This document shows, piece after piece, positions 18,361-38,094 of a stretch of DNA of 64,000 bases. Origin of the DNA: an uncultured Roseobacter sp. (GTDB lineage Bacteria > Pseudomonadota > Alphaproteobacteria > Rhodobacterales > Rhodobacteraceae); assembly GCF_947499265.1 (NCBI RefSeq), contig NZ_CANMNK010000009.1:91314-155313 (forward strand), read 5' to 3'. Both the position numbers and the translations under genes were made by a program. The number at the start of each line of letters is the position of its first letter. The stretch's first letter is position 1. The notes under the pieces were generated by a model. It did no database searches, was not told the origin of the DNA, and saw only the letters and a program-made list of their open reading frames with translations.

Positions 18361-21087
18361 ATGCGGCATTTGCTTGTCGTACATTTGATTGTCGCCGCGA
18401 TCCTCCTGGCTGATCGCGGCGGCTTTTTACGTGGGCTGAATGACCGCGTGGAAGACATCAGGTCAGGTCTACTCGACCGCAGCGCGTCCGGCGATTTTGT
18501 GTTTGTGGCGATTGACGCAGACTCCATCCGCGCTGTGGGCACCTGGCCCTGGTCTCGTCAGGTACATGCCGACATCCTCGAAAACCTGTCCAGAGCAGGC
18601 GCTATTGATGTCTTTTTTGACATCGACTTTGCATTCCCTGCCGATCCGGCTGGTGATGCGGCCTTTGCAGCAGCTCTGGACAGATCGGGGAGCGCCTATT
18701 TGCCTGTCTTTCAACAGCTTAGCCGCACGAACAGCAGCGAGGAAATCATCAATTGGCCCATGGAGGATTTTGCGCAGCGAAGCTGGCCCGCACTGGTCAA
18801 CGTTTTCGGCGATACGCAGGGGGCAATCCGCTTCTATCCGTACGGCGCGGTAATCGCGGAAGAGTATATCCCATCAGCCGCTGCTTTGATCACCGGCACG
18901 TTTTCGGAGCGATCCGGCAGCTTTCCGATCAACTACGCCATTCGACCGGACAGCGTACCGGTTTTGTCTGCGGTCGACGTCGCTGAAGGCAGGTTTGAAG
19001 CGGATATGATCGCTGGGCGTTCAATCGTCGTAGGGGCTTCCGCTATTGAGTTGGGCGATCTCTTTGCGGTTCCTGTCCACGGAATTATCCCAGGACCACT
19101 TGTGCATGTCTTGGCAGCCGAGACCCTGGCGGGTGGTATCGTCCCAGCGACCCTTGCGACAGGTTGGATTTTGCTGGGCTTGCTTGTGCTGTTGCTTTTG
19201 TTCCAGATGCGGGCGTTCCGAAAGCCGACGGCTTTGATCACCGCCGCTGGGCTGGCCCTCGTTGCGAGCGAGGTTGCAGCTTTCGGGGTCTTCGCGCAGC
19301 ATGCCATCGTGGTTCCCACAGCACCTCTGTACCCAGGCCTGCTTGTCTTTTGCAGTTGGTCGCTCCTCTGGCGGTTGAAGATCAACAGAACAATCATAGC
19401 CAGGCAACGGCAGGAGGTCGCCAACACCTCAGCTCTTTTGCGGCAGGTTTTCGAGGACAGCTTCGATGCCATCGCCATCCTCGATGAAACGGGCAGAGTG
19501 CGGATGCACAGCGATTCCGCAGCGCGTCTGTTCGATTATTCCGACACACAAGACCTGATGCTTCCTGCGCGGCTAAAAACCGAAGCTATGACGGCGATGC
19601 GGGCAGGCGGCGATGGGGCAATGCGCACCTACGAGTCCCTCGGCAACGGCACCGCCCTGCACCTGGAGTATACGGTCACGCCGTCGGAGACCGTGACCTT
19701 CGATCAAAACAAAGAGCAGACGGTTCAGATTGCCACGCTGTCGATGCGCGACGTCACAAAGATCAAGCAGCAAGAACGCGATATCGCCTATCTTTCCAGC
19801 TACGACGCACTCACGGGCGCCCTCCGGCGCAGCGTTTTTCTCGATTTCATCAAGCTCCGTGCAGAGGCAGGCGAGTGTTTCGCGATCTTTGTATTCAATT
19901 TGAGCCGCTTCAAAACCGTGAACGTCGTTTTGGGCCGGGATGTCGGGGACGCTCTTCTGCGACATGTCGTCAAGCGTTTGGAAGAAGCAGAGTTGAACAT
20001 CTCTGCTGCTGCACGCCTTGGCGGAGACACGTTCGCATGCTTCACCGAGTTCGCGGTGGATGACACCGACGCGCAAGACCTGGCGCATCGCCTTTGCGAG
20101 ATCATCGGCAAGCCTTACGAGCTTGAAGACTCCAACGCCCGCGTCGGCCTGAAACTTGGTTATTCCATCATTGATCCCGGCACCGATGTTTCGGCTTCGG
20201 ATGCGCTGTCCCAGGCCGAGGAGGCATTGGATGCTGCCAAGCTGGCCGGAAACGATGCCCCTCATCCTTACAACCCCGCGATGTCAAAGAAGCAGTTCCG
20301 GTCCCGGGCGATAGAGCGTGCGATGGGTCGCGCTTTGGACCGCGAAGAGTTCGAGGTCTGGTATCAGCCACAGCATCGCGTTGATGACCTCAAGCTCATA
20401 GGCTCCGAAGCTCTCTTGCGCTGGAAATCCGATACGCTTGGACAGGTCTACCCTGACGAATTCATCGAAATCGCGGAATCAACGGGTTTCATCAACGAAT
20501 TGGGGGCGTGGGTTCTGGACAAGGCGGTGCGTGACACGATGCGCTTGCCCCCTCACATGAGCGTTGCCGTAAATGTCTCAGGCGTTCAGATGACTTCGGA
20601 GAACATCGTCAGCGACATCAACAGGCTGTTGCAAGAGACCCAATTCCCCGCCACGCGCCTCTGTCTTGAACTTACAGAGACGGTTTTGTTCGATGGGACA
20701 GGGGAACTGGTGGAAATGATGCGCGATATCCAGTTTCGAGGTGTCTGCTGGGCCTTGGATGATTTCGGAACGGGCTATTCGTCGCTGGGGTACCTGTCGC
20801 AGCTTCCAATCGAAAAACTGAAGGTCGACAAATCCTTCATGCTTGGCCTCGGCACCGACCCAGCCGCAGAGCCGATACTGACTGCGGTCGGAGATCTGTG
20901 TCGTGGTCTTGGCATGACTCTGCTGTGCGAAGGCGTGGAAACCGACGAGCACCTGAAATTCCTCCAAACCAGAGAAGTTGCCGAGGCTCAAGGATACCTC
21001 TTTGGCAAGCCGATGCCGTTTTCCGACTTTCAAGCATATGCGACCGACTGCGCGACATCGAACCGGCGCGGCAAGGCCAACAGTTAG
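18361..21087 (+). CDS. CHASE2-PAS-GGDEF(degenerate)-EAL protein
   Basis: 908 aa; 'FVFVAIDADSIRAVGTWPWSRQVHADILENLSRAGAIDVFFDIDFA' CHASE2; 'RLGGDTF' degenerate GGDEF; 'SEALLRW' and 'ALDDFGTGYSSLGYL' EAL. Confidence 0.92.
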   Translation: MRHLLVVHLIVAAILLADRGGFLRGLNDRVEDIRSGLLDRSASGDFVFVAIDADSIRAVGTWPWSRQVHADILENLSRAGAIDVFFDIDFAFPADPAGDAAFAAALDRSGSAYLPVFQQLSRTNSSEEIINWPMEDFAQRSWPALVNVFGDTQGAIRFYPYGAVIAEEYIPSAAALITGTFSERSGSFPINYAIRPDSVPVLSAVDVAEGRFEADMIAGRSIVVGASAIELGDLFAVPVHGIIPGPLVHVLAAETLAGGIVPATLATGWILLGLLVLLLLFQMRAFRKPTALITAAGLALVASEVAAFGVFAQHAIVVPTAPLYPGLLVFCSWSLLWRLKINRTIIARQRQEVANTSALLRQVFEDSFDAIAILDETGRVRMHSDSAARLFDYSDTQDLMLPARLKTEAMTAMRAGGDGAMRTYESLGNGTALHLEYTVTPSETVTFDQNKEQTVQIATLSMRDVTKIKQQERDIAYLSSYDALTGALRRSVFLDFIKLRAEAGECFAIFVFNLSRFKTVNVVLGRDVGDALLRHVVKRLEEAELNISAAARLGGDTFACFTEFAVDDTDAQDLAHRLCEIIGKPYELEDSNARVGLKLGYSIIDPGTDVSASDALSQAEEALDAAKLAGNDAPHPYNPAMSKKQFRSRAIERAMGRALDREEFEVWYQPQHRVDDLKLIGSEALLRWKSDTLGQVYPDEFIEIAESTGFINELGAWVLDKAVRDTMRLPPHMSVAVNVSGVQMTSENIVSDINRLLQETQFPATRLCLELTETVLFDGTGELVEMMRDIQFRGVCWALDDFGTGYSSLGYLSQLPIEKLKVDKSFMLGLGTDPAAEPILTAVGDLCRGLGMTLLCEGVETDEHLKFLQTREVAEAQGYLFGKPMPFSDFQAYATDCATSNRRGKANS

Positions 21088-21464
21088 GGGCTAGCCGATA
21101 GGGGATGCACTGACGCGCTGCTTTGGCAGAAGCGCTTTGCCGCAGCGATCAGCCTGCCGCATATTACAAGCCATGCAGCAGCAAACAGCGATTGGAAACA
21201 AGCCTGATTTTGCCTGCTTCTTGTGAAGCGCCAGTGCCAAGTCTGCTGCAGGCCGCACCAATGACCAGTTGTCCCGCTGCTGAACTGCGGCAACTCTTGG
21301 ATCACCACAGCAACTCTCCCGGCGAAGTGCACCCACAGCAAAAAAACGAAATAACGGGTTGGGCTCACAGCAGACTTCCGACGGTTTCGGTCAGTTGACG
21401 GGTGGCAGCCCAAAGCCGACCTTCAATTCCACACTAGAAAGCAGTGCCATTCGCGGCAGAGTGT

Positions 21465-22679
21465 TTACAGTCCGACAAAAAAGCGGATTGCGAAGGCGTT
21501 GGCGAGGTCCACGAAAAACGCGGATACCAGCGGCAACACAATGAAAGCCAATGGCGCTGCCCCGTACCGTTTTGTAACTGAGGACATGTTTGCGATGGCT
21601 GTAGGCGTCGCCCCAAGCGCAAATCCCGCGAAGCCTGCACTGAGGACAGCGGCAAGGTATCCGCGCCCGATCACACGGAACACCACAAATAGGATAAAGG
21701 CCACCGTCATAACCACCTGCATCAGCAGAACAGCGATGAGTGGCCCACCCAGTTCCGCGAGTGTCCAAAGCTTCATGCTCATCAACGACATCGCCAGGAA
21801 CACCGACAGCGCATAGTCGGACAGGACAGCCAACGCCTTGCTTCCCGCAGGCCAAGTCAATGAACTGAGGACGTACGGGATCGTGTTCGACATCAGGATT
21901 CCCATCAGAAGGCAAGGAACAAAGAGCGGCAGCTTCAGGCCCATCTCGCCGATAAACTGATGTGCGACCCAGCCCAGCAGAATGGCAATATGCGCCGCCA
22001 GTGTCGCACGCATCAGACTGACGTGGTTCACGCTTTCTCCGGTATCATTGTCATAGCTCAGGCCAACCACTGGTGTCTGATCTGTCTCGCCTGAGAGGTG
22101 GTGGCGGTCGATGAGCCATTTGGCAATCGGACCCCCAATCAATGCGGCTAGAACGAGACCGAGCGTGGCGGTCGCAATACCCACTTCAGCGGCCGCATTG
22201 AATCCGGTCATTTCTCCAATCTGTGGTCCCCAGGCAATGGCAGTTCCGTGCCCGCCGATGAGTGACGCGGATCCAAGAAGCACCGATACAGCATTGGGCA
22301 GGCCGAAAAAGGTCACTCCCAGCAACCCAACAAGATTTTGGAGAAGCATGAAGCCAACGGTCAGAACGAGTAAAATAAAAAGGAGTCTTCCGCCTCTGAG
22401 CAAATCGGCAATTCGTGCGTTCAAGCCGATGGTGGCAAAAAACAAAACCAGTAGATAGTCCCGAACGTCCATTTCAAACACGATCTCGCGCCCCGTGAGG
22501 GAAAACCAGATCCACGTCAGAAAGGCGACAGCGATGCCTCCTGAAACCGGTTCTGGTATGTTGTAGTTCTTCAGGAAAGAAACCCGCCGCGTAAGAAGTG
22601 CTCCGAGGAAGAAGACGATGAAACCCAGCGTTGCTGCAATAAAGGCAGGGACAATGATCGTGGCGGCTTGATCTGCCAT
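21465..22679 (-). CDS. gltS: Sodium/glutamate symporter GltS
   Basis: 'YNIPEPVSGGIAVAF', 'SASLIGGHGTAIAWGP', 'ATPTAIANMSSVTKRYGAAPLAFIVLPLVSAFFVDLANAFAI'; start at MADQAATI. Confidence 0.93.
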   Translation of the reverse strand: MADQAATIIVPAFIAATLGFIVFFLGALLTRRVSFLKNYNIPEPVSGGIAVAFLTWIWFSLTGREIVFEMDVRDYLLVLFFATIGLNARIADLLRGGRLLFILLVLTVGFMLLQNLVGLLGVTFFGLPNAVSVLLGSASLIGGHGTAIAWGPQIGEMTGFNAAAEVGIATATLGLVLAALIGGPIAKWLIDRHHLSGETDQTPVVGLSYDNDTGESVNHVSLMRATLAAHIAILLGWVAHQFIGEMGLKLPLFVPCLLMGILMSNTIPYVLSSLTWPAGSKALAVLSDYALSVFLAMSLMSMKLWTLAELGGPLIAVLLMQVVMTVAFILFVVFRVIGRGYLAAVLSAGFAGFALGATPTAIANMSSVTKRYGAAPLAFIVLPLVSAFFVDLANAFAIRFFVGL

Positions 22680-23001
22680 GTGGGTGCTGCCTTGAGTGTT
22701 TCTATCGAGCAGTTTCTCCAATCAAGGTCGCAGAGGTCGATACTGAGTGCAATGGGGGACGAGCGGTATCCGACCTAGTGACGGATTTACCGCTAGGCAG
22801 CCCAAAGCTGACATTGGCTCCGGACGCCCCAGGAAGCAAGTCGCGGACTAAGCCGCCTGATGCTCATACAGCAAGATCGGCCTTAGCGCGGCAACAACCT
22901 TTCGAATTAGGTCGCGGCAGTGCAGCGCGATGTTCTCGAATGCGGTCAATGAAGGTTGTCAAATAGGGCCAGTTTGGAACCGGTCGTTCGCCGTGTCGGT
23001 G

Positions 23002-23880
23002 TCAAACATTGTCCCAGCGCTTCAACAGCCAGTACCACTGTTCCGGATTGGCCATTATCCGTGAAGACAAACTGTCGTTAAAGGCGTGTGTCATGGTGAC
23101 TGGATCTGTGGGCGGAACCGGAGCTTCGAAGATTACGTTAAACGCATTCCCATCCTCGATACGAATGCCAAAGGCCGGTATCATTGGCAGGTCGTATTTC
23201 AGGGCCATTTGGGCTGCCGAAAGAGACGTGAGAGCATCGTGACCAAGAAACGGTATCCGCACACCTTCAGAATACTTCTCATCAAGTAGGATGGAGATAA
23301 TGCCGCCCTGTCTTAGGTGGCGGACGAGAGCCCGTGTTCCAACTTGGCCGGTCGCCAAAATCGGTTTACCCCCGGCTTGAATGGCAGTGAATATCCTGCG
23401 TTCGTAATGTCGGTTTTTGTTTGGACGGTAAATGGCGCCGCTTTCCAATCCATGCAATTTGATCGCGGCTCGGATCGCTTCCCACTGCCCGAAGTGCCCC
23501 GAAACGACGATTCCACCTTTACCAGCTACATTTGCTTCTTTGAGAGCCTCAATCCCGGGGCCAGATATTCTGAATTTGTGATGCTGGGTCTGAAGCTCGG
23601 TGTCATGATAAATCTCGAAAAGTGTCCTTCCCATTTGACGGCCCATTTCCTCACCTAGCTTTGCACGCAAACCAGGCTTCATATCAGGAAAAACGCGTCT
23701 GATTTCTCGGTCGAACCGGCGTCTCGCTGGCGGGAAAATGCGCATGACCACCCCCAGAGTTGTCCCGAGGCCCTGGGAGCGTGCATCAAATGAACGCCAA
23801 CGCGACGCTGTCAGCGCCAACCATAGAGGGAAGTACTGGGCGTGGTGCACGAATGATTTAAGCGATTTAGGAAACACCAT
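23002..23880 (-). CDS. Lysophospholipid/lipid A lauroyl acyltransferase (LpxL/HtrB family)
   Basis: 292 aa; 'VVSGHFGQWEAIRAAIKLHG' HX4-type motif region, 'WYWLLKRWDN' C-terminus. Confidence 0.88.
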   Translation of the reverse strand: MVFPKSLKSFVHHAQYFPLWLALTASRWRSFDARSQGLGTTLGVVMRIFPPARRRFDREIRRVFPDMKPGLRAKLGEEMGRQMGRTLFEIYHDTELQTQHHKFRISGPGIEALKEANVAGKGGIVVSGHFGQWEAIRAAIKLHGLESGAIYRPNKNRHYERRIFTAIQAGGKPILATGQVGTRALVRHLRQGGIISILLDEKYSEGVRIPFLGHDALTSLSAAQMALKYDLPMIPAFGIRIEDGNAFNVIFEAPVPPTDPVTMTHAFNDSLSSRIMANPEQWYWLLKRWDNV

Positions 23881-24122
23881 CCCATATGAACGGGATGTTC
23901 ATCGATGCCAACCGAATATGGTGAGAAAAGCACAAAATAATAAGCATTGGGAAGTAGATTCGTCCGCTTCGCGCTCAAGGCGGAAATGAACTTCTTTCTA
24001 TGAAGCCTCGAAGTTCGGGTGCCATTAGCGAAATCTAGTCTTCAGGGCACTATCGGGATTTTGCCCTTGCTGCTTTTGAAACGGTGCTGGTCTATTGTCC
24101 ATAACTCGTCCATTGTTCGTCA

Positions 24123-24371
24123 ATGTTGGAAAAGCTGAACGTCTCAATTGACAAAATTCGCGTTCCGTCCAAGCGCGCGAAAGCCCTTGACGAAAAAAAG
24201 CTGGAATTGATTGCCGAAGATATGATTGAGAAAGGTCAAACTACGCCAATCCAAGTGAGGATTGATGGTGATGGCTATGTTCTCATAGAAGGCTTGCACA
24301 GGCTCGAAGCTCTTAGGGCGCTTGGTGAGGCGAATGTCGAAGCTTACATTGTACGAGCTCGCTTGCATTAA
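24123..24371 (+). CDS. Stand-alone ParB/Srx-type domain protein
   Basis: 82 aa; 'KLELIAEDMIEKGQTTPIQVRIDGDGYVLIEGLHRLEALRALGEANVEAYIV'. Confidence 0.8.
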   Translation: MLEKLNVSIDKIRVPSKRAKALDEKKLELIAEDMIEKGQTTPIQVRIDGDGYVLIEGLHRLEALRALGEANVEAYIVRARLH

Positions 24372-24706
24372 ACTGCGATCGGTGGGCCTATCCGGTGCGT
24401 CGAAAGCGACTTAATTACAAGGGCCTGTTTTTGAGAAGCCGACTTGGCGGTACGGTATCAGGTCCCAAGTGCGGTCGTTCCAAAGAGTCAAAACGGTTGA
24501 AATCTGAACTAAATGTTCGCTGCGTCATTCATGGATGCTTAAGTTGGGATGAAGGTTATACAGCCGCATTTGCGAGAAAGACCTCTTGAGGTTTAAGTCA
24601 ATTGGGTAGCCGACAAGCACGTCAACTTGGAGCAATCTTTGAACTATGTTGATCCTCCCCCAATTGAAGTAGTCCTCCGCTATTTTTAGGAAAACGGAGG
24701 AAACAC

Positions 24707-24856
24707 ATGGCCAACAAACGACCAAAGCCGGAAGAGATTGTCACGAAGTTACGGCAGGTTGAGGTACTGACAGGGCAAGGCATGCCACGTCTGGATGCTA
24801 TCCGGCAGATCGGTGTGACTGAACAGACGTATTACCGCTGGAGTGCAGGCGGATAG
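24707..24856 (+). pseudogene. Truncated IS3-family orfA (transposase) remnant
   Basis: MANKRPKPEEIVTKLRQVEVLTGQGMPRLDAIRQIGVTEQTYYRWSAGG*, then stop; no orfB follows. Confidence 0.85.
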
Positions 24857-25176
24857 GCCCGCATTCTGATCACCGGTGAGTGAGAATGACCAAAGAAGCG
24901 ATGATTGACACTAAGGACCTTCGCGGCGCGCCTCATCAACAGGAACAACGCGGACAAAACGGCCGTTCAACTTCTTCCAGTAAGGGTCCGCTTTGCATGC
25001 TTCGCGAACGTAGAAATCACGCCGAAGAACATCCATATCTCGCGTGAAGGGCGGACACAAAGCCATGGGAGTCCCAGTCGCGACGGTCTGCCATCGATCA
25101 CTTCGCCGGCTTCCGGTGCTGTCTACCTGTCGGACCGTGAGAGGTATCGTTAGTGTGATAAGCGACTGGCGGGATT

Positions 25177-25749
25177 CTATCCCTTCCAACCGTCAATGGT
25201 CTCAACTGCCACCTGTGCCATCGGCGCCGCTGCAATGGTCGAGCCCATAAGGCGGATCTGGCTGAGCGCACCCCAAAGCAGCCCGAGAAGGAACTCCGCT
25301 TTGCCACGCGGATCGCTCACGCCGTCCGCTTCAGCGGCGGCGCGGAAGGCATCGAACCACATCGTTCGGTAGGCCTCGACAGCCTCGCGAATTTTCGGGC
25401 TCGCACGACCCAGCTCGAAGACCGTGTTGACCATCAGGCATCCACAGTTCGTCACGTCTTCCTCGTTCTCCGTCGGCTGCGCGAGGCCCTGAAACATCAT
25501 CTGCGCAGCTTCCAAGCGTGGCGGGTCGAAGACCTGCCCGATCACCCCGCGGGCCATCTCGCTATAGGTAGCGAGCACCCGCAGGAAGATATCCTCCTTG
25601 TCGCCAAAGACATTGGCGATGCCGCGCACGCCGATGCCAGTTGCTTCCTCCAGCATTCGCGTGGTGGTCGCGTCATAGCCGTGGCGCCAGAACACCTGCA
25701 CCATCTTTTGCAAGGCTTCGTCTTCGTCGAAATTCCGGGGTCTGGCCAT
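25177..25749 (-). CDS. TetR-family regulator (module 1)
   Basis: 'MARPRNFDEDEALQKMVQVFWRHGYDATTTRMLEEATGIGVRGIANVFGDKEDIFLRVL'. Confidence 0.92.
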   Translation of the reverse strand: MARPRNFDEDEALQKMVQVFWRHGYDATTTRMLEEATGIGVRGIANVFGDKEDIFLRVLATYSEMARGVIGQVFDPPRLEAAQMMFQGLAQPTENEEDVTNCGCLMVNTVFELGRASPKIREAVEAYRTMWFDAFRAAAEADGVSDPRGKAEFLLGLLWGALSQIRLMGSTIAAAPMAQVAVETIDGWKG

Positions 25750-25764
25750 TATTTTACATCAACT

Positions 25765-25808
25765 GTTGCATTATGCATCACCTCATGCAATATACATCGC
25801 ACGATGCA
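25765..25808. promoter_or_regulatory. Putative TetR operator region (inverted repeats)
   Basis: TGCATTATGCA (25767-25777) and CATCGCACGATG (25795-25806) in the divergent intergenic region. Confidence 0.45.
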
Positions 25809-25844
25809 AAAAACCATACCCATCGTGAGCCAAAGGAGAAAACT

Positions 25845-26042
25845 ATGCCAACCATCCGTGTCACCGTCCCGAAAGCCGCTTGGTCAAAGGACGAGAAAGC
25901 CCAGATCGTCGCCAAGCTGACCGACGGGCTCAACGCCGTCGCCAGCGATGCCGGCAAGGGCGACATCAAACCATACATCAACGTCCATATCGAAGAGACC
26001 GCCGAGGGCGGCTACGCGATGGGCGGTAACGTGGTCGCCTGA
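25845..26042 (+). CDS. 4-oxalocrotonate tautomerase-like protein
   Basis: 65 aa beginning MPTIRVTVPKAAWSKDEKAQIVAKLTDGLNAVA; N-terminal Pro of tautomerases. Confidence 0.85.
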   Translation: MPTIRVTVPKAAWSKDEKAQIVAKLTDGLNAVASDAGKGDIKPYINVHIEETAEGGYAMGGNVVA

Positions 26043-26092
26043 GCCTGTACGGTGGCCTATCTGGCCACCGCGTTTCTCAAAGGAGCAAGACT

Positions 26093-26614
26093 ATGAAGAT
26101 CAAGAAAACACTGACCGTCAACGCCCCGCCCGATGCGGTGTGGGATATCTTGGGGCCGAACTACGTCCGCGCGGGCGACTGGGCTTCGAGCGTCTATGTC
26201 TCTGGCGCGCGGCCCGGCACGCCCAAGATCGCGGGCGCACCTGCGGCGGGGCGGACCTGCGAAACCTCGCTTGGACCCTTCACGGAGACCATCGAAGCCT
26301 ATGACGAAGCGCGCCGCCATGTGGCCTATTCGGCCACCGGCGACAAGATGCCTAGCTTTATGAAAGGTCTGCGCAATGCCTGGACGGTGCGACCGAAAGG
26401 CGGCGTCAGCGAGGTCGAAATGGAGTTGAACGCGGACATCGCCTTCCCTTTCAACATCCTGATGGCCCCCATGATGAAGATGCAATTCGGCAAGGTTCTG
26501 CGCGAGGCAACCGAAGAGCTGAAGCACTATGCGGAAACCGGAAAACCGCACCCGCGCAAGCTGAAGGCCGACAGCAGCAAGAAGGCGGTCGCCGCACGCG
26601 CCGCCACCGCCTGA
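26093..26614 (+). CDS. SRPBCC (START/Bet v1-like) family protein
   Basis: 'MKIKKTLTVNAPPDAVWDILGPNYVRAGDWASSVYVS...'. Confidence 0.88.
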   Translation: MKIKKTLTVNAPPDAVWDILGPNYVRAGDWASSVYVSGARPGTPKIAGAPAAGRTCETSLGPFTETIEAYDEARRHVAYSATGDKMPSFMKGLRNAWTVRPKGGVSEVEMELNADIAFPFNILMAPMMKMQFGKVLREATEELKHYAETGKPHPRKLKADSSKKAVAARAATA

Positions 26615-26638
26615 CACCCCAACCCCAAAGGAAAAGTC

Positions 26639-27700
26639 ATGAAACATCTTTCGACTGTGGCTTCGGCCGCACTGATCTCGCTCGCCCTGGCGCAAGGTGC
26701 CGTGGCCCAGGACATGCCACCGCGCGCCATCGGTTCGCTCGACGTCGATGCGGCCACGACAGCGCCGCTGCAAGTAACGCGCAGCGTTCATCTCGACGCC
26801 GCCCCCGAAACGATCTTTGCTACGATTGCCGACAATGAGAACTGGGTAAGTTGGTTCGATAGCCTTGAGAGCGTCGAGGGGCAGGACGGCTCTCGCACCT
26901 TTACCTTTACCGGCGGTCAGGGGGCGCTGACCGAGAACATCGTCGCCTTCGACGAGCCGAGCGTGTTTGCCTGGTCGATCAGCGAGGGCAATCCGCTGGG
27001 ACTCGAAAACCATCTTGGTGCGCTGCATGTGATGCCCGACGCGGAGGACGGCGAAGGCTCGGTCGTGAGCCTTTCGGTCTTCTACAACCATCCCGACCTT
27101 GCGGGGATCGCGCCGGTGACCGAAGGCGGCGGAGCGACGATCACTGATGCGCTGGTTTCCGTTCATGGTGGTTCGGTCACGCAAGAGGTCTTTGGCACCG
27201 ACAAGATCACCATCCGCACGACTCGCGTGACCGATGCCAGCGTGGCTGAGCTTTGGGGCGTGATGGTCGATGGCTTCGGCGATGTGGCCCAGTGGTCCAG
27301 CGTGATCTCGGAGGCGACACTCTTCGGCGAGACGGGCACGTCGAATGACGGTCTGCTGGGCGTCGGGCGGAAGTGTTTCATTCCAGGCTTCGGTTCCGAG
27401 GTGGAAGAACGCGTGGTCGAGGTCAATCGTGAGGCGGGTCGATTTGCCTACGAGGTGCTGGCCGGTCTTCCGCCCTTTGCCTCCAACGGGCTCAGCCAGT
27501 GGGAGTTCGAGGACCTTGGGGATGGTACGACGCGTGTAACCTCGACCATCACGATGGATATCGCCGAGGGAACACCGGGCATGGCTCTGGGCATGACCAA
27601 GGCGCAGTTCGGCCAGTTGATGACCATGAGCATCGACGAGTTCGTGCACTTCGTCCGGACCGGCGAGCCGCATCCCCGCGAACTGGCAAGCCGTTCGTGA
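26639..27700 (+). CDS. Secreted protein with two SRPBCC domains
   Basis: Signal peptide ending 'GAVAQ'; 'SVHLDAAPETIFATIADNENWVSWFDSL' and 'RVTDASVAELWGVMVDGFGDVAQWSSVI'. Confidence 0.82.
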   Translation: MKHLSTVASAALISLALAQGAVAQDMPPRAIGSLDVDAATTAPLQVTRSVHLDAAPETIFATIADNENWVSWFDSLESVEGQDGSRTFTFTGGQGALTENIVAFDEPSVFAWSISEGNPLGLENHLGALHVMPDAEDGEGSVVSLSVFYNHPDLAGIAPVTEGGGATITDALVSVHGGSVTQEVFGTDKITIRTTRVTDASVAELWGVMVDGFGDVAQWSSVISEATLFGETGTSNDGLLGVGRKCFIPGFGSEVEERVVEVNREAGRFAYEVLAGLPPFASNGLSQWEFEDLGDGTTRVTSTITMDIAEGTPGMALGMTKAQFGQLMTMSIDEFVHFVRTGEPHPRELASRS

Positions 27701-27701
27701 C

Positions 27702-28427
27702 ATGCGGGTCGTGACGCTCGCGGTGACGAGCCTTCTTGCGGCGCTTTCGGGCGCCGCAAGCCGTGCCGAGACGGTGGCGATCCCGGATGCAAGAGAGGCC
27801 GTCGTTCAGGTGATCTCGCGCGGGGAAGGGGCCGATCCTGCGCTCATCGTAGGCCTGCATGGATACGGGGCCAGCGAGCCGCAGATCGCGACGCTGCTGC
27901 CGGTCGAGCTCGATTTTCCGCATGTCTATGTTGCGGTTCGGGCGCCGCTCGCGCTGGAGGACGGTGGCTATGCCTGGTTCCGCTTTGCGGCGGAAGCGGG
28001 CGGGATCGTCATAGCACCAGGCGCGGTCGAGCGCGCGGTGGATGATCTCGCAACCCTGCTGCCGCGGATCGCGGAGGCCACTGGAGCAGCCTCGGACGAT
28101 ATCCATGTCGTCGGATACTCCCAAGGCGGAACGCTCGCCCTGGCGCTTGCGCTGGACCGACCCGAAGCTGTGGCCAGCGTGGCGGCCTTCGCGGGGGCAC
28201 TGCCAAGTGACCTCGCCACACCACAAGCCACCGCGCCGCTGCCAGTTCTCGCAGCGCACGGGCGACTGGATCCCCTGATCTCCGAACAAGACATCGCGCT
28301 GACCCGGGCCATGCTTGCCGCGGCCGGGCGGCGGGTCACCCCGTTTGACGAGGGCGTGCCCCATGTCGTTGGAAACGCGGGCCGGCTGCGGCTGCAGATT
28401 TGGCTGGCAGACCGTCTGGCGGACTGA
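27702..28427 (+). CDS. Secreted phospholipase/carboxylesterase-type alpha/beta hydrolase
   Basis: Signal peptide; 'VGLHGYGASEPQIATLLP', nucleophile elbow 'GYSQGG', 'AAHGRLDPLI'. Confidence 0.88.
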   Translation: MRVVTLAVTSLLAALSGAASRAETVAIPDAREAVVQVISRGEGADPALIVGLHGYGASEPQIATLLPVELDFPHVYVAVRAPLALEDGGYAWFRFAAEAGGIVIAPGAVERAVDDLATLLPRIAEATGAASDDIHVVGYSQGGTLALALALDRPEAVASVAAFAGALPSDLATPQATAPLPVLAAHGRLDPLISEQDIALTRAMLAAAGRRVTPFDEGVPHVVGNAGRLRLQIWLADRLAD

Positions 28428-28455
28428 GCAAAACGCCACCCGTGAGGCGGGGCGC

Positions 28456-29052
28456 TCAACCCGCGGCCCAGCCCTCCACGGTCCGAACCGCCTCGCGCAT
28501 AAACGAGTTCCCGCCCGAGGCGTCGCCCGCTGCCCGGTTGAGCACCATTGCCGCCATCACGGCGCCCTTGACGAACTCCGCTGCGGAGGCCGGATCGACA
28601 TCATCCCGCACCGTTCCGGTCGCGCGGCCCCGGATCAACAACGCCGCGACTTCGTCCCTCAGCGTGTCGAAATGCCGGTCGGTCGCTTCGCGGAGTGGGC
28701 CGCTGTCGAGCGATACGTTCTCGATGGTAGTGTTGACCATAAGACAGCCCAGGTGCCTCAGCGTCTCGGGGTGCGGCGCGACCATGCCTTCGAGAACCTC
28801 GACGATGGCTTGAGGATCGTCACGCTTGCGAAGGACGTCATAGACATAGGTTTCGGTGTCGCCGGAATAGGACGAGAGCGCTTCAAGCATCAGCCCTTCT
28901 TTACCGCCGAATTCGGTGCGGATCGCAAAGCGCCCGAGGCCGGTCTCCTCCTCGATGGCGCGAATGCCAAGCCCCTGATAGCCGTGCTTCCAGAACAGAT
29001 TGCGCACGCGCTCGACAACCTCTGCACGGTCATAACTTTTTGGACGCGCCAT
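28456..29052 (-). CDS. TetR-family regulator (module 2)
   Basis: 198 aa from MARPKSYDRAEVVERVRNLFWKHGYQGLGIRAIEEETGLGRFAIRTEFGGKEGLMLEAL. Confidence 0.92.
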   Translation of the reverse strand: MARPKSYDRAEVVERVRNLFWKHGYQGLGIRAIEEETGLGRFAIRTEFGGKEGLMLEALSSYSGDTETYVYDVLRKRDDPQAIVEVLEGMVAPHPETLRHLGCLMVNTTIENVSLDSGPLREATDRHFDTLRDEVAALLIRGRATGTVRDDVDPASAAEFVKGAVMAAMVLNRAAGDASGGNSFMREAVRTVEGWAAG

Positions 29053-29714
29053 CAGAGACCCTCCACAATGTCTTTCAAGCCCATCGCAAGTCCAGTTCCT
29101 GCGACGCGATTGCCATGCGCCGGAAAAAGCTGCGTCGGCTGGTCCCGCTCGATCTGCGCGAGCGCCCAGGCCTTGTAGCGCGGCGGATCGCCAAGGCACA
29201 TTGTGGCAAAGGCTCCCCGCGCCTTGGGCTCCGTGGCGGGCGCGTCGTCCGTGCCCGCCGGCCCCGCGAACGCGTCGCAGACGGCCCACGCGACGCCGTC
29301 CGCCGTTTCCGCGCGGAGCCAGACCTCCGGTGCCTTCAGACCCTCGGGAAAGAGAAACGCAGCACCATCGACGAGTGACGGCATCTTTGCTGATGGTCGA
29401 ACACCCAGACGTTTCTCCAGCCGGTCGCAGGCACCCTCGGGTGCACAGAGCGATGCCTCTGGAAAAGCATCCATCCATGCCGCGATGCCGAGATGATGAT
29501 AAGGCGACGGCGCGATGATGGCCGCGACCCCGCCGCGCGCACGGGCCGCGTCGACAGCCTCCGAATCGGGCGCAGGGACAGGCGAGTAAAGCGCCAGCGC
29601 GCCGTCGGCCAGACGCGCCGCCATCATCCGGGCAGCCCCTCGGCGCGCGGTGAAAAGGTTGGACGATCCGGGCACCAGGCTCAATGGATCAAGGGGTTTG
29701 ACGGGCAAGGGCAA
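29052..29714 (-). CDS. DUF4336/metallo-beta-lactamase-fold-like protein lacking a canonical HxHxDH
   Basis: 'AIIAPSPYHHLGIAAWMDAFPEASLCAPEGACDRLEKRLG'; overlaps start of TetR (module 2). Confidence 0.6.
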   Translation of the reverse strand: MPLPVKPLDPLSLVPGSSNLFTARRGAARMMAARLADGALALYSPVPAPDSEAVDAARARGGVAAIIAPSPYHHLGIAAWMDAFPEASLCAPEGACDRLEKRLGVRPSAKMPSLVDGAAFLFPEGLKAPEVWLRAETADGVAWAVCDAFAGPAGTDDAPATEPKARGAFATMCLGDPPRYKAWALAQIERDQPTQLFPAHGNRVAGTGLAMGLKDIVEGL

Positions 29715-29745
29715 CCTCTTTTGGATTCTGCGTTGACAATCATTT

Positions 29746-29783
29746 CACTTCATACGTAGTGTTATAGCACTTCACTTGTAGTG
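29746..29783. promoter_or_regulatory. Two 16-bp palindromic operator-like sites
   Basis: CACTTCATACGTAGTG (29746-29761) and CACTTCACTTGTAGTG (29768-29783), 22 bp apart. Confidence 0.65.
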
Positions 29784-29819
29784 ATACACAGACTTCACCC
29801 TTCCGACCAGAGGAAATCC

Positions 29820-30776
29820 ATGAAACATCTTCTTCTTTCGACCGTGCTCTTGTTCGTGGCAGGGCAGCCCGCCTGGGCTGAAACCCCACGGGAAGCCCAT
29901 CGCGCAACGCTCGAACGCGCGGACATTGGCGGGCACGGCATTGCCTATCTTGATCTCGGCGACCCTGCCGATCCTGCTGTCATGCTGCTGCACGGTATCC
30001 CGACTTCGTCCTACCTCTATCGGGACGTCGCCCCACAGATCGCCGCTGCGGGTTACCGTGTCATCGCGCCTGACCTTCTGGGCCACGGGGCGTCCGACAG
30101 GCCGGACGATATGGCCGCCTACGCGACCGACGCCCGCGCCGTGCGGATGTTCGCGCTGGCCGACATGCTCGGGATCGAGAACTTCGCGCTGGTCCTCCAC
30201 GACGTTGGCGGCATGACCGGGTGGGCCATGGTCGGGCAGGCACCCGAACGGCTGTCAGCGGTCGTCGCGACCAACACGCTGGCCGGTCTCGATGGCGTCA
30301 CGCCTGCGCCGCTCGTGATGCAGATGATGGCCGGTCAGGTCTCGCCCACGGACGCCTTCGCGGATCTCGATGACCCGGCTGCGGCGCGAGACATGGCGCA
30401 GATGTGGATGGATCAGGGCTATTCCGGCCCCGGCACCGCACCCGCCGAGGAGGTCGATGCCTATGGCGCGGATCTTGTGGGTGCAAGCACCGCCTACGCC
30501 GCATTTTTCGGCATGGCCGTCCCAGCTTTCATGCAGGGTGGTGAGGCGCTTACCACTGATCTTGCCGCCTATGACGGACCCACCGCCATCATCTTTGGCG
30601 AACAGGATGGCTTCTTTGCAGCCGACATCGTGATCGCCGATCTCGCGGCGAAACTCGGCACGAACGCTGGCGATATCACCCGCCTGCCGGAGACTGGACA
30701 CTTCCTGCAAGCGCAGGCGCCTGCGGCTTACGTCGCCGCCCTCACTGACTTCCTGAACACTAATCTGGAGAACTAA
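29820..30776 (+). CDS. Secreted alpha/beta hydrolase (haloalkane dehalogenase/epoxide hydrolase-like)
   Basis: Signal peptide 'MKHLLLSTVLLFVAGQPAWA'; 'LLHGIPTSSYLYRDVAP', Asp at nucleophile elbow 'LHDVGG', 'LPETGHFLQ'. Confidence 0.88.
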   Translation: MKHLLLSTVLLFVAGQPAWAETPREAHRATLERADIGGHGIAYLDLGDPADPAVMLLHGIPTSSYLYRDVAPQIAAAGYRVIAPDLLGHGASDRPDDMAAYATDARAVRMFALADMLGIENFALVLHDVGGMTGWAMVGQAPERLSAVVATNTLAGLDGVTPAPLVMQMMAGQVSPTDAFADLDDPAAARDMAQMWMDQGYSGPGTAPAEEVDAYGADLVGASTAYAAFFGMAVPAFMQGGEALTTDLAAYDGPTAIIFGEQDGFFAADIVIADLAAKLGTNAGDITRLPETGHFLQAQAPAAYVAALTDFLNTNLEN

Positions 30777-30779
30777 CCC

Positions 30780-31238
30780 ATGGCAAAAGTCACCACCCGC
30801 CGCAAAATTGATGCCCCCGCGTCCGAGGTCTGGAAAAGCCTCGACGATTACGGCGGCATCGCGAAATGGAACGAAAACCTCGCCGCTTCGCGCATCCTGC
30901 CAGGCAGCGCGGAAACCGGCCTCGGCGCGAAGCGCCAGTGCGATCTCAACGCGGACGGCAGCCAATACCTGCGCGAAACCATCAACCAGTACGAGCCGGG
31001 GCGGAAACTCGGCCTCGTCATCGACGACACGACCATGCCGATGAAAGGCGCGACCTGCCTGTTCGAAGTGCGCGAGTTGGGCCCGAACCGGAGCGAGTTG
31101 ATCTTCACCATGGACTTCAAGCCGCCCATGGGCCCAATCGGCATGCTGATGCTGCCGATGATGAAACCCATGCTGCGCGGCAAGATGGCCAAGGCGCTGG
31201 ATGGCAACGCGCGTCACGTCGAAGGCGTGATGGCCTGA
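30780..31238 (+). CDS. SRPBCC family protein
   Basis: 'MAKVTTRRKIDAPASEVWKSLDDYGGIAKWNENLAASRIL'. Confidence 0.87.
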   Translation: MAKVTTRRKIDAPASEVWKSLDDYGGIAKWNENLAASRILPGSAETGLGAKRQCDLNADGSQYLRETINQYEPGRKLGLVIDDTTMPMKGATCLFEVRELGPNRSELIFTMDFKPPMGPIGMLMLPMMKPMLRGKMAKALDGNARHVEGVMA

Positions 31239-31273
31239 TCGACCGAAATCTCAATACAGATAGGACTGAAAAA

Positions 31274-31720
31274 ATGACCAAGACATCCGCCTCCGTGAGC
31301 CTTGCAACCCACATCGACGCACCGCTCGACGCCGTGCGCGCCGCCGTGCACGATCCGGCCTGGAGCAAATGGGTTCCGTTCCTGAAATCCGACACCTGCG
31401 AGGGGGACGCCGCCGGATCGGCGCGCGTTTGCGTCATGGCGCATCCCGACCCGCAGCTTGATGGCTACGAATTGCAGGAGACGATCACCGAGAACGACCG
31501 CGATGCGGGGCGCTTCGGCTACGCCATTGCCAACCCGCCGTTCCCGGTGGAGAACCTCGGCGGCACCGTCACCACGGAGCAGACCGACGACGGCGTGCTT
31601 GCGATCTGGACGGCACATTTCGACGCCGAGCCAGAAGTGCTGGAGGAGGTCCGGCCGATGATGCTGCACTCCTACCATGCGGCCTTTCAGGGCCTCGAGG
31701 CCCACGCGACGGTAGGGTGA
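31274..31720 (+). CDS. SRPBCC family protein
   Basis: 'ATHIDAPLDAVRAAVHDPAWSKWVPFLKSD'. Confidence 0.85.
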   Translation: MTKTSASVSLATHIDAPLDAVRAAVHDPAWSKWVPFLKSDTCEGDAAGSARVCVMAHPDPQLDGYELQETITENDRDAGRFGYAIANPPFPVENLGGTVTTEQTDDGVLAIWTAHFDAEPEVLEEVRPMMLHSYHAAFQGLEAHATVG

Positions 31721-32099
31721 CTTGATCAGGGGCCAGCATCATCGCTGGCCTCAATCGAGGTCCTCTAGAGAACCTTGTTCCGGCAATCCAAGCAGCCCGA
31801 TTGCCATACTCTCTATTGTAGACTGATTTCGCTAGAGGATTATCTGAGACTACTCCCCATCACCGCTTACTGGCCGCAAACCTCCCAAGACTTAGATGTC
31901 GGCTCGTGGCGCATTGCCGCTATTTGAGCAGAGCGCAGCATTCGGGAGGTATGGGCTCTTCGCCGACCTTAGCCGCGCGACGCATCAACGGCAGCGGGCA
32001 GCCCGAAGCAGACATCGACGTTGCGCCCACTAACCATCGGAAGTACTTTCCCAGATGAATAGACTAGCAAGGCCCAACACCCCGTGGAACTGAGGTAAA

Positions 32100-33185
32100 G
32101 TGAGCGTGACCGCCAATAGTGAAGTCGAGATTGAGTACTTGACGGATGATGACACTGAGACATCCAGTGTTGAATTCAATATCGTTGTGACATCAAGCGA
32201 TTGGACGCTTGAGCTACTGGCTAACAAGTTTAAAAGTGGCGACATCATTATTCCCGACTACCAGAGAAAATATGTTTGGGACATCCGTAGAGCATCAACT
32301 CTGATAGAGAGTTTCGCAATCGGACTCCCTGTTCCTCAAGTCTTTTTCTATGAGAATAGCGATGGCCAGCTTGAAGTGATTGACGGACAGCAACGCATTA
32401 CCTCCATAGCGTATTTCTTCGAAGGTTTCTTCGGCGAGGAAGATGCGAACGGAAATAGGAAAGTATTTAAGCTAAAGGGCCTCGAACAACGGAAAGACTT
32501 AGAAGGCAAGTCATTCAATGAACTTGACGAGCGAACAAAACGCAGGATCAAAAATGCCAGTTTACGTGGCGTAACTGTCAAACAACTGACCCCTGAGGAA
32601 GAACAACCAGAAAGTGTCTATCATATCTTTGAAAGACTGAATACCGGTGGGCAACCGCTCAATGCACAAGAGATACGGAACGCTGTGTATCGGGGAAAGC
32701 TACTAACCGAACTCGAACGACTGAATGGTGATGAAAACTGGCGAACCATATATGGCAAGCCCGACCCTGACCCTAAACAACGAGACGTTGAGCTAATCCT
32801 GAGACTTCTGGCGTTCTACAAAAACACGTCCAACTATGTGCCTCCGATGAAGGACTTCCTTTCCACGGAAATGTCTAAGAACAGGAACTATGCTTCCGAT
32901 CGCGCCCAAGAATTTAGCGCGACTTTTTCGCGGGCTACAGAGGCCATAGTCGCCGTGCTGGACAAACCGTTTCGTCCACGGGGACTTCTGAACGCAGCTA
33001 CTTTGGAAGCTGTAATGGTGTCATTGATGGAGCAAGGTCCAGATGCCGAGTTTACGAAGGACAAATACGATGAGCTCATTGGCAACCAAGAATTCAAGGA
33101 TGTGATATTCTCGAACACTTCGAACATTGATAACGTGAAGTCGCGGAGTAGAATCGCGAACCAAATCCTGTTTGGACATGAGTGA
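32100..33185 (+). CDS. DUF262 (GmrS-like) domain protein
   Basis: 'IIPDYQRKYVWDIRRASTLIESFAIGLPVPQVFFYE', 'VIDGQQRITSI', 'IFERLNTGGQPLNAQEIRNAVY'; GTG start. Confidence 0.9.
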   Translation: MSVTANSEVEIEYLTDDDTETSSVEFNIVVTSSDWTLELLANKFKSGDIIIPDYQRKYVWDIRRASTLIESFAIGLPVPQVFFYENSDGQLEVIDGQQRITSIAYFFEGFFGEEDANGNRKVFKLKGLEQRKDLEGKSFNELDERTKRRIKNASLRGVTVKQLTPEEEQPESVYHIFERLNTGGQPLNAQEIRNAVYRGKLLTELERLNGDENWRTIYGKPDPDPKQRDVELILRLLAFYKNTSNYVPPMKDFLSTEMSKNRNYASDRAQEFSATFSRATEAIVAVLDKPFRPRGLLNAATLEAVMVSLMEQGPDAEFTKDKYDELIGNQEFKDVIFSNTSNIDNVKSRSRIANQILFGHE

Positions 33186-33717
33186 ACGTCTAGACGAGAG
33201 CTTTCTACATATTCGTAACTTGGCTCGCGACATTGACGAAAAACTGAGCGGCACGTCTAGTGCTGAGCAGCGGTTACGAAACGAAATTGCTGGCATGTTT
33301 GCCGTCACGATTGCCGCCTCATATGAGGGGATCGTGAAGGAGACTCTGGTGGAGTATGCAGGTAAATTTCACACCAAGTATCAAGCTCATGTTGAGAAGG
33401 ATTTTGAAAGACTAAACGCGCGCATTTCCATAAACGATCTAAAGTCATATTCGCGTCGATTTGGTCTTGCTGAATGGACGGGCCACGGCGTCAAGAAAAA
33501 CTCGACGACATTCCACAAAGTGTTGGCCGAAAAAGAGAAGGTGGTTGAGCGACGGTTTCGAACTGATCTTCAAAAAAGCTACGACAGCATCTTTATTTGG
33601 AGAAATTCATACGCTCATGAGCGTTCGACCACAGCGACTTTCAATGACGTATACAGGGCGCACAGAGTTGCTCAATACGTCGTTCGATCCTTTGTTACCG
33701 CATTTGAATTGGGGTGA
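33178..33717 (+). CDS. HEPN-domain protein (putative RNase) coupled to DUF262
   Basis: 'FIWRNSYAHERS' matches the R-x4-H HEPN motif; 8-bp overlap with the DUF262 gene. Confidence 0.75.
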   Translation: MSERLDESFLHIRNLARDIDEKLSGTSSAEQRLRNEIAGMFAVTIAASYEGIVKETLVEYAGKFHTKYQAHVEKDFERLNARISINDLKSYSRRFGLAEWTGHGVKKNSTTFHKVLAEKEKVVERRFRTDLQKSYDSIFIWRNSYAHERSTTATFNDVYRAHRVAQYVVRSFVTAFELG

Positions 33718-33847: not shown

Positions 33848-34867
33848 CTACCTCGCCATCCCCTTGATCAATTCCGCCTGCCTTTGCCGTGACACCGGCA
33901 TGTAGGACCCGACAGTTACCGCCATGCTGTCGTGGCCCATGTTCATCGACCACGCTTTGAATTGCTCCATGTCGTTGCACATCTCCTTGCCAAGCATGGC
34001 AAGCGTCGTGCGGAAGCTGTGGGGCGTGTATTCCGGCAACTGCACCATAGCAAAGGCGTTGCGGATGATGGCGTTGAGTTTGCTGCCGTTGCTGTAGGGA
34101 TCGCGCGAAAGACCCAGATTGACAAAACCACCGCCCTCAGAAAAGCCTCTCTCAGGCTTGGGAAAGAGCGCGTCCTGGCCCCCGAACAGCTTTTCGTGGC
34201 GCAGATACTCAACCCATGCAGTGAAGCACGCCAGATAGGCCGGATCGACAGGGTAAAATGTCGTGTCGATGGTCTTCGAGAACTTGGTATTCACATCGCG
34301 CCCGTCTTGCAAAACCTTGCCGTGAAAGAGGTCAATGTGCTTCAGGCGCAGGGACGCAACGGCACCGACACGCGCGCCTGTGAGCATAAAGAAGGCAAAG
34401 AGCGCCTTATCGCGTTTCTCAAAATCGGACCCGTCCGGCATCGCCTGAAAGGCATGGTATGCTGCCTCAACGCTTGGGTATTCCTTGTCACGTTTAGCGT
34501 GGGCCGCGCGCGCCGCCTTCAGACTGTTTTTGAAGTATGCTGTGTCGCTGTAAGTGATCTTGGACTTGTAGCCTTGCTGCCCCGCCAGCCATTCAAAGAA
34601 GCCGCGCACCAATGCCAGGGTGGCGTCGATGGTGGACCCGCTCAAAGGGTTGCCGGTCCTGCCTTTGGCCTTCGCCAAATCAGTTTTGAACTTGGCGGGT
34701 TGCTCGATATGGAACCGCTTGAACGGCTTGAACCCGGTTGATTGTTCGAACTTCAACAGGGCCGACAACACCTTGTCTGTGGACTTTTCATCCAGCCCTT
34801 TTGCCTGCTCCAGATAATGCACGTAGGCCCGTTTCGCCCGCTCGTTTGCTTCGACTGTTTTCCGCAT
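33848..34867 (-). CDS. Tyrosine recombinase/phage integrase
   Basis: 'FFMLTGARVGAVASLRLKHIDL' (Arg box), 'HSFRTTLAMLGKEM', 'NMGHDSMAVTVGSYMP'. Confidence 0.9.
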   Translation of the reverse strand: MRKTVEANERAKRAYVHYLEQAKGLDEKSTDKVLSALLKFEQSTGFKPFKRFHIEQPAKFKTDLAKAKGRTGNPLSGSTIDATLALVRGFFEWLAGQQGYKSKITYSDTAYFKNSLKAARAAHAKRDKEYPSVEAAYHAFQAMPDGSDFEKRDKALFAFFMLTGARVGAVASLRLKHIDLFHGKVLQDGRDVNTKFSKTIDTTFYPVDPAYLACFTAWVEYLRHEKLFGGQDALFPKPERGFSEGGGFVNLGLSRDPYSNGSKLNAIIRNAFAMVQLPEYTPHSFRTTLAMLGKEMCNDMEQFKAWSMNMGHDSMAVTVGSYMPVSRQRQAELIKGMAR

Positions 34868-34964
34868 TGGGAAACTCCTTTTTGACCGCTCAAGTGATGT
34901 ATTTTTCAGATGGGTTGCCCGTAGCCCTCGAAGTGATGGTTCACGTTAGGTTTGTGAGGTTCGA

Positions 34965-35390
34965 CTAGGCTTGCGACCCACTGCGTCTATCAATGGCGAA
35001 TACTTCGCTCAAAGCCGCCAAACTGGCCTCGGCACTGAACTTCTGACATGGGCGTTCGCAGGTCTCACAAAGCGCTTCGAGACGACCTCTTGTCTGGTTG
35101 ATCGGCACATAGTCCACCATCATGCCAAATGGCTTTTTTGGCGCTCGGCATTTGAAGCAATAGAATTGATCTGCGGCCAATGTGATCGTGCGCTTTTGCT
35201 GTCGTTTCGCCACGAACTCGATCAACGCCTCGCCGAGAATGTAGTGGGGCCGACCTTGATCGAGAACCTTCAACCCTTCGCCTTTCCACGCCCGCACCGT
35301 TTGGACAGATAGACCCAAAATACAGGCGGCGTCCTCATAGGTATAATGCCGGTGTTTCTTGATCCCGCGCGTTGAGACGCGTTTACCCAT
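34965..35390 (-). CDS. HTH (MerR/excisionase-like) domain protein with C-terminal Cys pairs
   Basis: 'YTYEDAACILGLSVQTVRAWKGEGLKVLDQGRPHYILGEALIEFV' plus 'CFKC..CETC'. Confidence 0.75.
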   Translation of the reverse strand: MGKRVSTRGIKKHRHYTYEDAACILGLSVQTVRAWKGEGLKVLDQGRPHYILGEALIEFVAKRQQKRTITLAADQFYCFKCRAPKKPFGMMVDYVPINQTRGRLEALCETCERPCQKFSAEASLAALSEVFAIDRRSGSQA

Positions 35391-35602
35391 CAGGCCGCCC
35401 CCTCTTTCGAGGGATCGACCCGGCTTGCCTCTGCCCATGTGTTGAGATCAGCGCCGCGATAGATGATCTTGCGGCCCAGCTTGTAGAACGCCGGACCCAT
35501 GCCTTTGTGCCGCCATTGCGCCAGCTTGTCCCGGTCGCCGATGAGGTTGAGTTCCTCATCGCCAAGAACGTAGTTTCGGTTTTGCTCGAATAGGTTTGCC
35601 AT
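35390..35602 (-). CDS. AlpA/excisionase-like HTH protein
   Basis: 70 aa; 'LIGDRDKLAQWRHKGMGPAFYKLGRKIIYRGADLNTWAEA'. Confidence 0.78.
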   Translation of the reverse strand: MANLFEQNRNYVLGDEELNLIGDRDKLAQWRHKGMGPAFYKLGRKIIYRGADLNTWAEASRVDPSKEGAA

Positions 35603-35721
35603 GTGTAAGCCGCTTTTAGTGGTTTCGGATTATTAAGGGCTACTCTCAGCAAATTTCGCTTACACCTCTGAAATACGTACTAGCCTATGGTTTATTCAGC
35701 GCATGCATTTCCCATCGGGAT

Positions 35722-36651
35722 TTACGTCTTGAGTCGGCCACTTAAGAAACGCGCGACTGTTGCAACATCGATCAATTCAGTCCCTTGCGGCTTATTTTTT
35801 GACCTTTTTCCAAGATATGATCGACGAATTTTAGAATCGTGCGGCATCCGTTCAACAGCGGACAATATCTGCCCTCCAATGGCTGACCAATTGCCGTACT
35901 TTCGTTGATCTTGTGCAAGGATTTCTTGAGCCATGACTTCGCAATGTGCTTTCCAATCCTCGCTTCGCTTAATCAGAGTTTCCGTCGCTTTTCCACTCTG
36001 GCCTCTAAGCCTTTCGACTTGCTCCTGTCGCTTCATCAGTTCGACACTATGGGTAATCTTCTGGCGCAATTGTTCCCATAAAACACCGATGAGAAACAAA
36101 CTGCCCCCTTCACCACTTGCAGTGAACTCTCTCATTATTCTCGCAGCGTACCACGTTGGCCGGAACAATTGCCCGTTGTCGCAAAGGTATTTTTCAACCT
36201 CCTTAAAGATTGCATGTGTGTTCTTGATCGCTGGCTTTAGGTCATAGAATTCACCAAACTCATTTTGTGCCGACTGCTTTTCAGCGACCCATTTCCTGAG
36301 GTGCCGCTGCGGTTCTGGGACATCATCACGGCTATCGAATATCTCATCGAACTCGACTGAATTGCCGTCATTGCACCAATAGTCGGCCTCAAAACTGAAG
36401 AACCCGGCATAAATAAGCAGGTCAACACAAAAGCCTATTGTTTCTTCTTGATCGGCACGCAGGGCAAATGAAAATGCCATATCTGAGACAGTTTTCTCAT
36501 CTCCAACAAGGAGATCATTGATTATGCTTTCGCCAAGAGAAACATCTTCTTCGAAAACTGCCCTTATCATTTGTTTTTCTGCGAGATAGATCGAGCGTCG
36601 TATCCCGCTCACTCCTTTGTCAGAAGGCGGTTCGCTTTCATCGTGACTCAT
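35722..36651 (-). CDS. Hypothetical protein
   Basis: 309 aa; stop overlaps integrase region (ATGA-like coupling at 36648-36651). Confidence 0.7.
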   Translation of the reverse strand: MSHDESEPPSDKGVSGIRRSIYLAEKQMIRAVFEEDVSLGESIINDLLVGDEKTVSDMAFSFALRADQEETIGFCVDLLIYAGFFSFEADYWCNDGNSVEFDEIFDSRDDVPEPQRHLRKWVAEKQSAQNEFGEFYDLKPAIKNTHAIFKEVEKYLCDNGQLFRPTWYAARIMREFTASGEGGSLFLIGVLWEQLRQKITHSVELMKRQEQVERLRGQSGKATETLIKRSEDWKAHCEVMAQEILAQDQRKYGNWSAIGGQILSAVERMPHDSKIRRSYLGKRSKNKPQGTELIDVATVARFLSGRLKT

Positions 36652-37841: not shown

Positions 37842-37991
37842 TCCTAAAATACCACATTCTCTACCACTCAAGGAAAGAATAAAGACACCATCGAAAGAAA
37901 CTCAAGGAAATGATGAAACAGCGCAACCGCTTATCAAACAAAGAAAAAAGCCGCCCAAGGTAGCTCATTCAAATTCAGAAAAATGTGGTAG

Positions 37992-38081: not shown

Positions 38082-38084
38082 GCG
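38039..38084 (+). repeat. 46-bp direct repeat, copy 1 (inside intact tRNA-Ser)
   Basis: Identical to 45469-45514. Confidence 0.95.
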
Positions 38085-38094
38085 TTTGATTTCA

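Follow-up and report, generated by a model that had tools for sequence, protein, structure and literature searches.

A mobile Roseobacter cassette encoding two CifR-like TetR regulators, SRPBCC proteins and predicted exported hydrolases

What is the role of a compact gene set in which two TetR regulators, five SRPBCC domains and predicted exported hydrolases stand side by side? The set lies at positions 25177-31720 of the window (the whole stretch of DNA analyzed in this study, 64,000 nucleotides from an uncultured Roseobacter sp.), and no published description of this gene combination was found in the literature searched. We see about an even chance that this is a mobile set of two inducible operons with which the cell responds to a reactive or hydrophobic small molecule, along the lines of a CifR-Cif system supplemented with binding proteins. 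The chief rival to such an inducible response is catabolism of one compound.

Gene content of the two modules

The ten genes form two divergent modules. In module 1, a TetR regulator on the minus strand (TetR1; 25177..25749; TetR_N in Pfam) faces four plus-strand genes, encoding a 4-oxalocrotonate-tautomerase-like protein (25845..26042; Pfam Tautomerase, with the proline after the methionine kept), an SRPBCC protein without a leader (SRP1; 26093..26614; PF10604, 3e-14), a predicted exported double-SRPBCC protein (26639..27700; PF10604 over two stretches) and a predicted exported hydrolase of the phospholipase/carboxylesterase family, hereafter the esterase (27702..28427). Module 2 comprises a second TetR regulator (TetR2; 28456..29052; TetR_N in Pfam) and a DUF4336-related, metallo-beta-lactamase-like protein (29052..29714), both on the minus strand, facing a predicted exported alpha/beta hydrolase of the haloalkane dehalogenase/epoxide hydrolase group (29820..30776; Abhydrolase_1) and two SRPBCC proteins, SRP2 (30780..31238; PF10604, 2.9e-19) and SRP3 (31274..31720; PF10604, 5.1e-17), on the plus strand. 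The DUF4336-related gene is situated between TetR2 and the intergenic stretch of module 2, with the hydrolase gene divergent on the far side. The Sec-type leaders of the double-SRPBCC protein, the esterase and the alpha/beta hydrolase were called by eye. All genes named in an earlier, sequence-only reading of this DNA were recovered at their coordinates and strands, and every gene label except the DUF4336-related one is backed by Pfam.

The five SRPBCC domains counted in that reading are present as well, one each in SRP1, SRP2 and SRP3 and two in the secreted protein, all with significant matches to Polyketide_cyc2 (PF10604). AHSA1-type stress genes, which the same reading had named as the case that would speak against it, were dropped as an identity, since all SRPBCC proteins match PF10604 instead and no AHSA1 profile is found among their Pfam matches at E 0.01. 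An Rv0910-type toxin was likewise rejected for SRP2 (NCBIfam score 21.6, cut-off 100). The SRPBCC proteins of the cluster are only distantly alike among themselves. The double-SRPBCC protein, whose structure model has a pLDDT of 42, has a paralogue in its own genome and an orthologue at locus L008 of genome G969. To our knowledge, little is known about the function of exported SRPBCC proteins. The name of PF10604 refers to polyketide cyclases and lipid transport, which would agree with the modification or maturation of an endogenous lipid or secondary metabolite, the SRPBCC proteins being cyclases or carriers; we consider this improbable, as PKS, NRPS and terpene genes are absent among the neighbours scanned and the block is sparse and recently acquired.

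The Pfam score of the tautomerase is barely over its cut-off and no solved structure matches it at E 0.01; partners that are 78-84% identical adjoin SRP1 in four other genomes. The esterase (Abhydrolase_2, PF02230, 1.3e-15) retains its serine (GYSQGG), Asp and His motifs. For the DUF4336-related gene, labelled ‘MBL-like’ in the sequence-only reading, profile comparison relates the N-terminal half of its family to DUF4336, but no Pfam match lies above cut-off and the HxHxDH metal motif of the metallo-beta-lactamase fold is absent from the alignment as read by eye.

The closest sequence kin of the alpha/beta hydrolase are haloalkane dehalogenases (NCBIfam scores under cut-off), with which it shares overall sequence and the Asp-Asp-His catalytic residues (nucleophile D128, acid D263 and H294, assigned by motif). 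Haloalkane dehalogenases need two halide-stabilising residues, a Trp plus an Asn or Trp (PMC10503415), whereas the window hydrolase has Ile60 (in HGIP) and Val129 (directly after the nucleophile, HDV) at these positions. Because both halide-stabilising residues are missing, it does not qualify as a canonical haloalkane dehalogenase, and this identity was rejected. The structure model has a modest pLDDT of 61 and finds its matches among epoxide hydrolases, fluoroacetate dehalogenases and Cfl1/Cfl2. In the lid, the seat of a test for the His-Tyr ring-opening pair, the pLDDT is below 50 at 155-177 and 199-244.

Regulators and putative operators

The best solved-structure match for both TetR1 and TetR2 is CifR (E 9e-11 and 6e-13, respectively), the matches being partial and of low identity. 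Cys104 of TetR1 and Cys103 of TetR2, each within GCLMVNT, align with a position at which a second CifR entry carries a Cys to Ser change. Since this cysteine is common in the TetR subfamily, it need not be the sensor here. Many compounds may act on TetRs of the CifR type.

The sequence-only reading had proposed that the two modules arose by duplication, pointing to the ‘CLMVNT’ segment of both regulators. TetR1 and TetR2 are only 31% identical and fall in separate supported clades of the tree, each with other genera; a GC[LF] motif occurs in the TetRs compared, so that ‘CLMVNT’ is a signature of the subfamily and no sign of duplication. Together with the low identity among the SRPBCC proteins, the tree leads us to reject module duplication.

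Both intergenic stretches contain a pair of palindromic sites. In module 2, two CACTTC-N4-GTAGTG sites (29746..29783; 22 bp start to start) have no mismatch and are the sole such sites in the window. The pair is also found in G172, a genome from another Rhodobacteraceae genus, at identical spacing and with 0 and 1 mismatch, and the intergenic identity to G172 is 39/46 within the site block versus 33/58 outside it. The two TTGCAT-N6-ATGCAA-type sites of module 1 (25773-25790 and 25792-25809) are statistically weak and not significant by themselves in the window; the same pair lies between TetR1 and the tautomerase on contig C5 of genome G673. We infer that these site pairs between the divergent genes act as putative operators of TetR1 and TetR2. 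A scan for sigma-70 promoters gave no finds in the block.

TetR2 also weakly matches the ScbR butyrolactone-receptor family. This match, along with the predicted export of both esterase and hydrolase, would suit the sensing or quenching of a lactone or other diffusible signal that the exported hydrolases would open. Such a role appears very unlikely to us: the ScbR score is 28 against a cut-off of 150, and the closest solved structure to TetR2 is CifR.

Movement and conservation of the cassette

The block from 24953 to 31958 is 99.7% identical to locus L007 of another Roseobacter genome (G973), whereas the 14 kb to its left (10415-24700) match G973 in pieces only, the long ones at about 69-89%. 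Its part from 28120 to 31958 is 99.6% identical to a sequence in a third genus (G673), where SRP3 is 100% identical, the match is cut inside the esterase and an integrase adjoins the block. At the right boundary, the sequences of the window, L007 and G673 diverge within a few bases of one another. The GC content of the block is 0.63-0.65 versus 0.48-0.54 on either side, and its GC3 is above that of the immediate neighbours. Just left of the cassette lies a truncated insertion-sequence remnant, the start of an IS3-type transposase orfA (24647..24842, plus strand), which matches a dozen places in G973, several of them at contig ends; the open reading frame 24707-24856 was read by eye as a transposase N-terminus. 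The block is a seven-kilobase cassette recently acquired by horizontal transfer. A plasmid or phage home was rejected: the plasmid collection holds no near match of the block, and the only phage match was a weak, partial one for the hydrolase. No attachment repeat of the tRNA-Ser end was found near the block, the best other match in the window being 17/25 bases.

The unit is rare, yet spread between genera as a cassette. SRP1 relatives occur in only 5/298 family genomes sampled. The module 2 core was found in four genomes (G000, G973, G673 and G172), all four of which also hold the tautomerase-SRP1 pair; as two of them share one cassette, they do not all represent independent events. In G172 (L034), both module cores lie about 1 kb apart, with shared proteins 63-83% identical (SRP2, adjoining the hydrolase, 69%): tautomerase-SRP1 is found beside a LysR gene, past which SRP2-hydrolase is divergent from the DUF4336-related gene and TetR2. 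G673 encodes TetR1-tautomerase-SRP1 at L025 and module 2 at a separate place. In G969 (L008), the tautomerase, SRP1, double SRPBCC and esterase stand beside a LysR gene, and two genes of dehalogenase type come next. In G063, a LysR gene accompanies SRP1-tautomerase, and another site in this genome pairs a TetR2-type gene with a DUF4336-related one; two such genes are also close together in G920. Because tautomerase-SRP1 adjoins a LysR gene in G969, G063 and G172, the TetR gene is not essential to module 1, a point against the CifR-Cif-like reading. A LysR gene also accompanies a second double SRPBCC-esterase pair, located in the window's own genome. The gene order thus recurs in other genera, which contradicts the possibility, raised in the sequence-only reading, that the neighbourhood is conserved nowhere. 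The cluster genes are under purifying selection (dN/dS 0.08-0.36 versus other genomes by a simple method, with several dS values near saturation).

A chance gathering of unrelated genes within a hypervariable island would agree with the integrases, resolvase and defence-type genes adjoining the block, and with the modules moving apart in G673. It is already contradicted by the dN/dS values and by the conservation in G172, where the same gene pairs and both module cores occur together; the putative operator pair is conserved as well, and we consider such a gathering highly improbable.

Catabolic genes are often carried on mobile cassettes, which is one point in favour of a catabolic cluster, in which the hydrolases, tautomerase and SRPBCC proteins would carry out steps of a pathway by which the cell feeds on a particular halogenated or aromatic xenobiotic or algal compound. 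Genes of tautomerase, esterase and dehalogenase type do recur together, and the L008 and G172 hydrolases hold the full HGN...DW dehalogenase residues. However, the window hydrolase lacks the halide residues, and genes for an oxygenase, a CoA ligase, ring cleavage or a transporter are absent from the block, leaving catabolism an unlikely explanation in our judgment. Related clusters add genes for a zinc-type (quinone-reductase-like) dehydrogenase, MAPEG, CMD/AhpD-type, GFA and YceI proteins and dehalogenase-type hydrolases, and these extra genes fit detoxification of reactive compounds.

Three of the related loci show further features. The G172 locus (L034; contig C3, 1-20000) contains a 19 kb run on the same theme at a larger scale, with TetR/LysR, several SRPBCC (some exported), MAPEG, CMD, YceI, GFA and dehalogenase-type genes. 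At 7594-8730 of L008, the esterase is fused to an apparent LysR C-terminus (read by eye) and SRP1 of that locus holds a stop, a case of decay after recombination. In the window's own genome (contig C4; L046, 9435-14099), the esterase that accompanies the second double SRPBCC carries a fused DsbA-like domain, and the two open reading frames that follow (11905-14099) resemble ergothioneine-type genes by eye.

Proposed function and genomic surroundings

CifR keeps the cif operon, which encodes a secreted epoxide hydrolase, repressed, and epoxides relieve this repression (PMC8244358). The window cassette resembles the CifR-Cif system of Pseudomonas aeruginosa and relatives (PMC8244358) in its CifR-related TetR with a cysteine at the same aligned place, in the divergent, predicted exported alpha/beta hydrolase of the epoxide hydrolase/dehalogenase group in module 2, and in the regulator sites (putative here) in the intergenic stretch. 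It differs in lacking morB and MFS transporter genes, which are likewise missing beside cfl1/cfl2 (PMC8244358), and in adding SRPBCC proteins, a tautomerase, an esterase and a DUF4336-related protein; moreover, the window hydrolase has the motifs HGIP and HDV, and the match between its TetRs and CifR is a partial one at low identity. By their description, the electrophile-responsive NemR/AltR circuits (PMC13178969) are similar in that a TetR repressor with an important conserved cysteine controls stress-tolerance genes through inverted-repeat operators, but their enzymes differ from those of the cassette. The secreted BcnA-type lipocalin, which captures hydrophobic compounds (PMC9113575, PMC5350466), is a further parallel, in that a ligand-binding fold is exported and proposed to retain a compound outside the cytoplasm; the window protein is an SRPBCC protein instead, and its capture role is a proposal.

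In the inducible response to a small molecule, a CifR-type TetR repressor would be bound, in each module, to the palindromic operator pair between the divergent genes. By analogy with CifR, an electrophile, possibly an epoxide, might react at the conserved cysteine or fill the pocket, and the repressor would be released. Module 1 would then supply a tautomerase and an SRPBCC protein to the cytoplasm and a double-SRPBCC binder and an esterase to the periplasm; module 2 would supply a periplasmic epoxide-hydrolase-type alpha/beta hydrolase, two SRPBCC proteins and the DUF4336-related protein. The exported SRPBCC protein might retain the hydrophobic compound within the periplasm, where the hydrolases would convert it, and the cytoplasmic SRPBCC, tautomerase and DUF4336-related proteins could handle what enters the cell. 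The genes present, their conservation and transfer, the kinship of the regulators and the paired sites are shown here; we infer the export of the proteins, the ligand, induction and catalysis. The system for capturing and converting a hydrophobic molecule envisaged in the sequence-only reading agrees with this picture as far as a small-molecule-responsive system is concerned, with proteins for hydrophobic ligands and with hydrolases on both sides of the inner membrane or beyond it; its duplicated modules do not, and capture and conversion stay putative.

We tentatively raise a more specific and rather doubtful version, in which the exported double-SRPBCC proteins may be soluble receptors that bind a reactive hydrophobic compound ahead of its passage through the inner membrane and hand it on to their partner hydrolases under twin electrophile-sensing repressors, the whole unit being a cassette that travels among species of the Roseobacter group. 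Recent transfer between genera together with purifying selection suggests a compound of the Roseobacter habitat that cells profit from handling. Because the cysteines and putative operator pairs are conserved, candidate inducers can be tested directly in reporter assays.

A defence function for the cluster itself was dropped, as PADLOC gave zero matches for the five cluster proteins tested. To the right of the block (32100-33717), a GmrSD N-terminal domain gene, NsnA-like and PD-T4-2_A-like in PADLOC, is followed by a HEPN-type gene in a stretch of low GC with an adjoining integrase, likely representing a phage-defence pair. The region 33848-40147 is a defence-type genomic island with two integrases, an HTH gene, a tRNA-Ser(cga) (37992-38081), a resolvase and an FRG-domain gene that resembles PADLOC PDC-S15. 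Dispersed short repeats around GGCAGCCCGAAGCAGACATC occur in both orientations at 21404, 22796, 31997, 33781, 40193, 41451, 43705 and 44487.
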